Of a stretch of 64,000 bases of DNA, positions 31,040 through 32,713 are shown piece after piece. The stretch covers positions 269,255 to 333,254 of the forward strand of contig JANPWX010000644.1 in NCBI GenBank assembly GCA_024734555.1, in the 5' to 3' direction. The position numbers were made by a program, and so were the translations under genes. The notes under the pieces are model-generated. The model saw only the letters and a program-made list of their open reading frames with translations. It was not told the origin of the DNA and did no database searches. Origin of the DNA: Trochalopteron elliotii (Eukaryota > Chordata > Aves > Passeriformes > Leiothrichidae). The stretch's first letter is position 1. Each line of letters opens with the position of its first letter.

Positions 31040-31751
31040 TCAGGCAAAAGAGGTAGTAAAGACACTGTTACGGGAGATTATACCAAGATTTGGTATACCG
31101 TTAGGAATGTCATCAGACAGGGGACCCCACTTTGTGGCAGGAGTTGTACAGGAGGTAGCAAGAATGTTAGGGATAACTTGGAATCTTCATACCCCTTGGA
31201 GACCACAGTCCAGTGGACAAGTGGAAAGGATGAACCAGACTCTGAAGGGGCAGATTAAGAAGATTTGTCAGGAAGCAAAGATCCAGTGGCCTCAGGCATT
31301 GCCCCTAGCCCTGTTGAGAATTAGGATAAAGCCTAGAGAGAAGGTAGGGGTAAATCCGTATGAAATCCTGTACGGCAAACCTTATCATGCTACAGTGTAT
31401 CAGGGTGACCCGCATTTGATAGGAGATCAAATCTTACTCACTTATATCCTATCTCTCAATAAGACCCTCACAGCTATCAGAGGAGCCCTGCAGTGGAATC
31501 GGCCGTTACCATTGGAAAATCCAGCTCATGATATCCTACCAGGAGACCAAGTGTATATTAAAAACTGGAACACTGAACCTCTGAAGGAAACATGGGAAGG
31601 TCCTTACCAAGTACTCATGACTACTTTCACTGCTGTAAAGGTCGAGGGCATCGGAAACTGGATCCATTACACCAGAGTCAAGAAAGTTCCGTCTCAGTGG
31701 GAAGTTCGACCCCTATCTGCTACCCGGATGGTGTTCAAAGCCAAATCGTAA
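31040..31751 (+). pseudogene. pol: Retroviral integrase, C-terminal ~235 residues (pol)
   Basis: Integrase inserts viral DNA into the host chromosome. The readable frame runs from within the catalytic core (IIPRFGIPLGMSSDRGPHF, holding the second catalytic Asp) through the Glu region (SSGQVERMNQ) to the GPY/F module (WEGPYQVLMTTFTAVKVEG) and ends at a natural-looking stop at 31751. The N-terminal zinc-binding domain and first catalytic Asp are missing through truncation near 31035. Within the surviving part the frame is open. The last 160 nt overlap the env frame, as in gammaretroviruses. Confidence 0.9.
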
Positions 31752-31816
31752 TAATTGTCATCCTACTGGGACAAATCCTATATGTGGATACTTTTGTGAT
31801 AATTACTGTAGTTGAC

Positions 31817-32092
31817 CTGTATGTAGTAGTGCCTGAAAATGCGAGCATGAATCTAACTTGTTTGTTTTCAGATAACCAGAGAGCTGGATTCGAGGAAGTA
31901 AATGTCAGATGGAAAGTAGGACCGGAAGTGGCGGATCAGGGAATGGTTACCTTGTTCTGGGACGAGCAACAACAAAGAGGGAACACGACCTTGCAGGTAC
32001 CCACAACATGGAGAAACCATACAGGCCCATTCACATGCATTGTTTGGATTAGAGATAGCTTTGATTATGGGAATTTTGAGGTAAAAGTGTTA
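31817..32092 (+). other. Ig-like segment 1 of env
   Basis: The segment follows VVVPENASMNLTC, with the first Cys at 31859-31861, a Trp 17 residues later (VNVRWKVGPE), and the second Cys in TGPFTC 59 residues after the first. This is the Cys-Trp-(G-x-[YF]-x-C) pattern of a V-set-like Ig fold. Four N-glycosylation sites lie in or near it. The assignment rests on motif reading, not on a profile search. Confidence 0.7.
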
Positions 32093-32164
32093 GGGATAAA
32101 GAATAAAGAAAATTTGGAAAATCCTGTCACAGTAGTACCGGTCCACACACAAGTTGACATATAG

Positions 32165-32425
32165 AATGGACCCCCATTAAGAATAAACTGCACCTTTGAA
32201 TTAGACCATTATTGTAGATGGACAGTACAAGTCAAATGGTGGAAAATGGGCCCGGACCAGATGTAGGAAAGATTAACCGTTGGAATAAGCTGGTGGATAG
32301 TCGGACTGAGGGGGGAGGGGTGGCTCAACATTACTGATCCAAAAATTGGGGAGGCTGAAGGAGAATACCTATGCGTAGTCACTTGTGGAAGTGACGGGAA
32401 CTATGGACTGAGGGAAGTAGTTGCC
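32165..32425 (+). other. Ig-like segment 2 of env (lies between two stops and contains one)
   Basis: First Cys at 32189-32191, Trp 16-17 residues later (VQVKWWKMGPD), second Cys at 32372-32374 within EGEYLC, 61 residues after the first. The W-K-x-G-P-[DE] string and the Cys-to-Trp spacing match segment 1, which suggests tandem duplication. The in-frame TAG at 32264-32266 falls directly after the W-K-x-G-P region. Confidence 0.65.
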
Positions 32426-32461
32426 AATCCTCACTTGGATGGGAGCGTTAGACCACAGCAT

Positions 32462-32713
32462 GGGGTATATCTAGCAACAGAAGGCCGGGACCTAATCTTA
32501 AGCTGTACCACAGGGGGAAAGAAATTTACTGACTTTGGGTGGTGGTTTAAGGGAAATTTGAAATCTGGACCCAAATATCAGATCGAGAGAAGAATTGGAA
32601 TGATAGTCTTAATAATCAGGCAGGCCAAGAAGGATGATGATGAAGGAAATTATTGGTGTTGGGTCTCGGAGGATGATTGGTGGGAACATGGAATGACTCA
32701 CGTCTATATGAGA
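32462..32713 (+). other. Ig-like segment 3 of env
   Basis: The pattern is EGRDLILSC, then a Trp pair 12-13 residues on (FGWWFKG), then LIIRQAKKDDDEGNYWC, with the two Cys 51 residues apart. The D-x-G-x-Y-x-C style strand F is the clearest Ig signature of the three. The shorter Cys-Trp spacing sets it apart from segments 1 and 2. Confidence 0.75.

Follow-up and report, generated by a model that had tools for sequence, protein, structure and literature searches.

The 64,000-nucleotide window analyzed here (Trochalopteron elliotii, contig JANPWX010000644.1, positions 269,255 to 333,254 of the forward strand; all coordinates below are window positions) contains at 31039-34883 a copy of an endogenous retrovirus (ERV) whose envelope (Env) frame carries three immunoglobulin (Ig)-like segments in front of its surface (SU) and transmembrane (TM) subunits. 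The end of pol just upstream encodes a C-terminal integrase domain of the murine leukemia virus (MLV) type (PF18697, E 3.3e-16), which places the element among class I (gammaretrovirus-like) ERVs. The results below make it probable that this is one copy of an ERV family with a three-Ig Env, in which the Ig array was likely captured from a host, likely forms an outer contact surface, and was likely passed on to avipoxviruses. The copy, including its 3′ long terminal repeat (LTR), is organized as follows:

31039..31751, plus strand: 3′ end of pol, C-terminal part of an MLV-type integrase including the stop codon (MLVIN_C, E 3.3e-16; solved integrase domain PDB 2m9u, E 4e-9)
31697..31804, plus strand: env leader, its first part inside the integrase frame (to 31751) and its hydrophobic core after it (frame comparison)
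31811..32113, plus strand: Ig domain 1, V-set-like (Pfam ig, E 6.1e-6, over the cutoff)
32150..32430, plus strand: Ig-like domain 2, with an additional Cys pair and in-frame TAG stops at 32162 and 32264
32435..32713, plus strand: Ig domain 3, I-set-like (Pfam ig, E 4.5e-8; I-set, E 7.4e-6; neurofascin, E 1.3e-7)
32720..32731, plus strand: RVTR motif separating Ig3 from the SU core, possibly cut by a convertase
32774..33670, plus strand: SU core with a basic RRIRR stretch at its end, without CXXC and without a Pfam match
33671..33673, plus strand: in-frame TAA stop separating SU from TM
33674..34312, plus strand: TM subunit with CX9CC at 33932, a hydrophobic membrane stretch and a stop at 34310-34312 (TLV_coat, E 8.7e-6, over the cutoff)
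34350..34361, plus strand: polypurine tract (read from the sequence)
34363..34883, plus strand: 3′ LTR of 521 bp, with identical borders recurring in the 5′ and 3′ LTRs of sibling copies

Env is encoded in frame 2 (31742-34312), which is interrupted by stops at 32162, 32264, and 33671 but shows no frameshift. The leader start at 31697 was set from the first Met of the relatives in the alignment, and hydropathy is 2.56 where piece 1 of the window Env begins. Homology to sibling copies begins at 31039 in all seven loci compared, so the window copy is 5′-truncated, and because of this truncation a repeat search of the window gave no LTR pair.

The earlier note on this stretch had described three segments, each with Cys, Trp, and G-x-[YF]-x-C, between the leader and SU body of a single env frame, and these were recovered with the same spacings. 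The Cys pairs lie at 31859/32036 (59 residues), 32189/32372 (61), and 32504/32657 (51), and the F-strand motifs are GPFTC at 32024, GEYLC at 32360, and GNYWC at 32645. The B-strand Cys, C-strand Trp, and F-strand YxC signature is present in all three segments, with Phe replacing Tyr in the first; by chance, 7 of 20000 shuffled versions of piece 1 and 36 of 20000 of piece 3 showed a C-W-GxYxC pattern. When the pieces of the window Env were searched separately against Pfam, segments 1 and 3 exceeded the curated Ig cutoffs, which shows homology of domains 1 and 3 to Ig domains at the profile level. The per-segment profile check suggested in the note thus came out positive for these two, while segment 2 is Ig-like at the level of its family profile only. 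Two results for segment 2 speak against a full three-Ig array: neither of its pieces has a Pfam match in the window, and its family profile finds weak matches in the PDB (best E 0.02). The same profile aligns to segment 1 over nearly the full length (hhalign E 4e-6, probability 72%) and gives no hhalign match to segment 3. Given these results, we infer that domain 2 may fold as an Ig domain as well. A profile of the Ig part from five relatives (two avipoxvirus, three env) matches titin (E 7e-25), PD-L2, CD276, and JAM-A chains. The family profile of Ig domain 1 also matches PD-L2, CD276, and JAM-A, and the solved structures nearest to this domain are V-sets of the B7/PD-L type and JAM-A.

The host assembly (1.04 Gb, 2215 contigs) contains about 80 copies, many of which have the Ig array layout. 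A search with the Ig3 piece gave 83 match rows, 16 of which lie within a stop-free open frame of 911-912 codons, and the Ig1 piece gave 85 rows, the final two being chance matches, with the long frame at the same 16 places. The number is stated as "about 80" because some copies are split over rows or possibly lie on duplicate contigs. The order Ig1-Ig2-Ig3-SU-TM was found in all eight loci checked piecewise, the window being one of them, with stops or frameshifts in some. Among 40 sampled copies, median identity was 97.4% (77.2-99.5%) and Ig1-3 were free of stops and gaps in 29. Pooled pN/pS among these 29 intact copies was 0.43 (Ig1, 0.28; Ig2, 0.51; Ig3, 0.52), a pattern that purifying selection on the domains during virus replication would produce. 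A lone Ig-like run beside an ERV could have arisen from a host Ig exon joined to it through an assembly error, a concern of the earlier note, or through a single local rearrangement. The identical order in eight of eight loci and the same layout in other bird species leave this explanation with hardly any probability, and the roughly 80 copies in one assembly exclude an assembly error.

Ten copies were tried for LTR dating and six full LTR pairs were used. One copy was dropped for having 193 aligned bases and no matching flank, two for lacking a 5′ LTR in the fetched stretch, and one because its "upstream" LTR has the host flank of the 3′ LTR (solo LTR or duplicate allele). The six pairs have K values of 0.0019-0.0194 (0.2-1.9% difference), which at a rate of ~2e-9 per site and year puts these six insertions at roughly 0.5-5 million years. 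Target duplications of 4 bp, as is typical for class I ERVs, are exact in four of the six pairs and agree at 3 of 4 bases in the other two. At L063/L064, the LTR of one copy and a nearby second LTR share their host flank, like a solo LTR/provirus allele assembled adjacently. An 18-base stretch starting with TGG follows the 5′ LTR, with single-base differences, in seven of eight copies (L052, L054, L056, L058, L060, L066, and L068) and is a putative primer-binding site.

Relatives, which the note had proposed to seek in full-length form next to gammaretroviral pol, exist in many birds. Besides the host copies with their long frames, and with an MLV-type integrase upstream in the window, protein searches recovered env relatives in the passerines Manacus, Pipra, Myiozetetes, Hirundo, Serinus, Zosterops, Prinia, Melospiza, Catharus, and others, and in a mousebird (Colius), whose relative has Ig2, Ig3, and SU as well as the end of Ig1 in the alignment. 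Counted by piecewise BLAST and Pfam, three Ig segments are present in P0040, P0042, P0043, and P0044, two in P0009 and P0015, and one in P0002, P0004, P0011, and P0013, with no Ig model at the cutoff in P0011 and P0013. In intact relatives, several Ig domains exceed the curated cutoff. P0012 retains a stump of Ig2, which points to domain loss from a longer array. Scans of IMG/VR with an avipoxvirus protein, the Ig module, and the env alignment gave pattern matches and no confirmed relative. Two database proteins have other arrangements. P0039, a Hirundo gene model, is a single predicted protein in which integrase, a fragment of Ig1, and a C-type lectin domain are combined; it is probably a fused annotation, the alternative being a second captured domain at the same place. 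P0046 has a divergent env N-terminus with another leader, two Ig domains (the first PD-L1/CD276-like), and RAKR before the SU core.

A sister env without Ig domains is present in the same genome, at places where the match to a divergent relative is confined to its SU core (38-61%). Nine of these loci were fetched. Three open sister reading frames of 535-544 codons match TLV_coat (one slightly under the cutoff), and all three were without an Ig match at E up to 1. About 40 residues that include RMKR separate the leader from the homologous SU core in five of these nine; RMKR occupies the place of the Ig-array junction in five of the six loci with an identified junction, and the sixth is truncated. 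In L071 and L072, which were printed with both frames, env starts after the integrase stop, unlike the Ig-env leader of the window, which runs within the integrase frame. Since the sister env lacks Ig but shares a homologous SU core, insertion is the simplest account of the array, which suggests that it was gained rather than lost in the sister env, such a loss being the less simple alternative.

This comparison also bears on the origin of the array, for which the earlier note had offered either a captured host Ig fragment or a duplicated, highly diverged retroviral receptor-binding domain. Gammaretroviral receptor-binding domains do have a beta-sandwich core, as was pointed out there, and segments 1 and 3 are related at the profile level. 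However, the array has the canonical Ig Cys-Trp-Cys signature and matches Pfam ig and I-set over the cutoff, its best sequence matches in the PDB are cellular Ig proteins and not viral SU, and the sister env has only its short Ig-free stretch at this place, all of which makes duplication very improbable. Of the possible origins, capture from a host Ig gene is the most likely, and this proposal held up as to Ig homology and not as to a donor gene. No host donor was found at E <= 1e-3 in a protein search (word-based, with candidates limited by length), and the best match to Ig1 outside the family in the bird's own genome was 26% with E 0.16. A recognizable host donor was rejected on the searches made. 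The missing donor weighs against the overall reading, as does the window copy, which is itself defective.

Proteins with the same three domains are encoded by avipoxviruses. Matches in the order Ig1, Ig2, Ig3 were found to proteins of crowpox, albatross/penguinpox 2, mudlarkpox, shearwaterpox, finchpox, magpiepox 2, and cheloniid poxvirus, while P0035-P0037 matched only over Ig1-Ig2. The avipoxvirus set comprises 11 rows, including P0032, which was grouped with them and has no named source. Identity is 35-61% for the Ig2 and Ig3 pieces and 29-36% for Ig1. These Ig-like proteins (CRPV-108, SWPV1-183, SWPV2-ORF155, and others) share with the window Env the three Ig domains, their order, and a matching leader, but belong to a small gene family of their own within a large DNA virus, with no SU, no TM, and no second hydrophobic stretch, whereas in the window Env the array is not free-standing and SU and TM follow it in frame. 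A hydrophobic leader is present in 10 of the 11 rows, P0031 beginning downstream of it, and a second strongly hydrophobic stretch after the leader is absent from all 11. The avipoxvirus three-Ig protein is predicted to be secreted, and it ends immediately before the place of the RxxR junction of env. The poxvirus type I interferon-binding proteins (such as C12R, PDB 3oq3) likewise have a secreted three-Ig layout, as predicted for the avipoxvirus protein, but the profile match to C12R is weak (E 3.4e-5) and ranks under many cellular Ig proteins.

Several lines of evidence bear on the direction of transfer. In the midpoint-rooted tree of the Ig alignment, all 11 avipoxvirus rows form one clade (support 100/99) that joins the manakin/flycatcher env clade (93/96). 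In trees of the separate domains, avipoxvirus Ig2 and Ig3 fall inside env diversity, and env forms one side of a branch in 1%, 0%, and 6% of bootstrap trees for Ig2, Ig3, and Ig1. The Ig trees omit domain stretches shorter than 55 residues and matches with little or no Ig part or with other fusions (P0005-P0008, P0010, P0014, P0016, P0019, P0021, P0023, P0024, P0039, and P0045-P0047), and the approximately unbiased (AU) tests omit P0038_Ig2, P0015_Ig1, and P0015_Ig2. When SU/TM is rooted with the Ig-less outgroup, the AU test rejects (p 0.0115) a tree in which the manakin/flycatcher clade is the outermost of the Ig-env rows. Seven avipoxvirus and 16 env rows match in the 17 leader columns that precede the hydrophobic core, with 1 of 200000 column permutations as good (p ~1e-5), or 24 of 200000 for crowpox-type leaders alone; 4 of the 11 avipoxvirus rows, with truncated, gapped, or shifted leaders, were left out of this test. 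In the window, the leader columns that match avipoxviruses overlap the integrase tail. This tail can be aligned with the Ig-less sister proviruses (p 0.011), and the tail of a second provirus in the window (see below) is weakly alignable (p 0.017).

Other results weigh against a retroviral source. Avipoxvirus Ig1 lies in an unresolved fork, the per-domain AU tests do not reject env monophyly (p 0.375 for Ig2, 0.248 for Ig3, 0.404 for Ig1), support for the manakin/flycatcher clade in the SU/TM tree is 61/67, and the integrase tail comparison retained one frameshifted row. Since the per-domain trees, the Ig1 fork, and this clade support are indecisive, the direction rests on the combined evidence, which favors transfer from retrovirus to poxvirus and stops short of proof. 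In the reverse route, a three-Ig gene of the host would first have been captured by an avipoxvirus, from which a bird retrovirus would have taken it and fused it to env, or both would have drawn on one host gene. In favor of this, host immune genes are often captured by poxviruses, the order is not settled by any host donor, and the AU tests are compatible with env monophyly. This route nevertheless appears unlikely, since avipoxvirus Ig2 and Ig3 lie within env diversity in the best tree, the rooted SU/TM tree rejects the env clade that is sister to avipoxviruses as the outermost one, and the avipoxvirus leader matches an env leader that overlaps an integrase tail alignable to Ig-less sister proviruses.

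The junction between the array and the SU core suggests how such a unit could have become free. An RxxR motif occurs within 30 residues there in 24 of 27 rows, compared to 10.9 expected from shuffles (maximum of 2000, 18); elsewhere, 45 of 450 stretches of 30 residues contain it. Cleavage may thus release the array. Against this, the 27 rows are related to one another, RVTR is a minimal motif, and three rows are without RxxR. Retroviral Envs carry their receptor-binding part at the N-terminus, where the array sits, which makes attachment its simplest role, and the closeness of domain 1 to B7/PD-L-type V-sets and JAM-A makes immune-ligand mimicry possible. The array, likely exposed as the outer contact surface of Env, would bind a cell-surface protein and hence serve either in attachment, as the tip of Env, or in mimicry of an immune ligand. 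Cutting by a convertase at RxxR between Ig3 and SU may free the array, which would be the unit carried by the poxviruses. We tentatively put forward, from these sequence comparisons, that the Env of bird retroviruses came to have three parts (Ig array, SU, TM) when a captured Ig gene was inserted in front of an old convertase site, that the array could then be worn or shed, and that avipoxviruses then took the shed unit, so that retroviral env would be the source of their secreted Ig family.

With the same origin, the array might instead have no part in attachment and be cleaved off as a soluble decoy or ligand, as the avipoxvirus protein would be. The frequency of the junction motif, the RMKR at the same place in the Ig-less sister loci, and avipoxvirus proteins that stop right before the motif without a membrane stretch after the leader would all fit such a role. 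The motif, however, is mostly the minimal RVTR and is missing in three rows, and it is also present without an Ig array, where it may serve leader removal, so that we regard a purely soluble role as somewhat unlikely.

The remainder of the Env resembles the gamma type of MLV and the syncytins. It shares the TLV_coat match in TM, weak matches to the MLV and syncytin TM cores, a basic SU/TM site, and the MLV-type integrase upstream. Gamma-type Envs have CX6CC in TM and CXXC in SU, whereas the bird Env has CX9CC, no CXXC, and the Ig array in front. CX9CC (33932-33967) together with an SU core without CXXC was observed in the window and also in the database relatives that have these parts: CXXC was found in none of the 27 database matches and CX9CC in 13, most of the remainder being without TM. 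P0009 has a TM without the first Cys of CX9CC. This combination suggests that SU-TM linkage may differ from that of gamma-type Envs. A second, different proviral fragment lies on the minus strand of the window at 57686-62697, with reverse transcriptase, RNase H, and MLV-type integrase pieces identified by Pfam; its downstream open reading frames at the env position match no Pfam family.

To our knowledge, no retroviral Env with a modular Ig array is known. The open-licence PMC literature was searched (subscription papers and preprints lay outside this scope), and among the matches listed, in the portions of text available, there was neither such an Env nor a link between avipoxvirus Ig-like genes and env. 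The impression in the earlier note that no avian ERV with this layout had been described stands for these papers, but relatives occur in many birds and the array is also found in avipoxviruses, which had not been foreseen. The nearest precedent in print is the alligator ERV CrocERV31, in which a captured nectin3 takes the place of env and one nectin copy is ~76% identical to the host protein (PMC4299795, available text). It is likewise an ERV that acquired a three-Ig cell-surface gene, but there the captured gene replaces env and its donor is recognizable, whereas the bird Ig segments share one reading frame with an SU-TM Env and have no recognizable donor. PMC12405802 was rejected as a precedent, as its available text mentions unrelated transcripts only, and the main texts of PMC10536682 and PMC2717909 do not contain "immunoglobulin" or "Ig-like." For avipoxviruses, the available portions of PMC4229897, PMC5718139, and PMC9445014 list Ig-like genes without a tie to retroviruses and mention reticuloendotheliosis virus insertions. 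A comparative paper places the Ig-like pair cnpv166-167 in a region that distinguishes canarypox and shearwaterpox from fowlpox (PMC5718139, available text), which does not imply identity to the three-Ig gene.

The family described here would be one whose Env has an ectodomain of the cell-adhesion type, retained among bird retroviruses in forms with one, two, or three domains. If true, the avipoxvirus link would represent gene flow from a retrovirus to a large DNA virus in which a piece of Env, and not a whole provirus, was kept, and it would give a testable source for avipoxvirus Ig-like genes of so far unassigned role.
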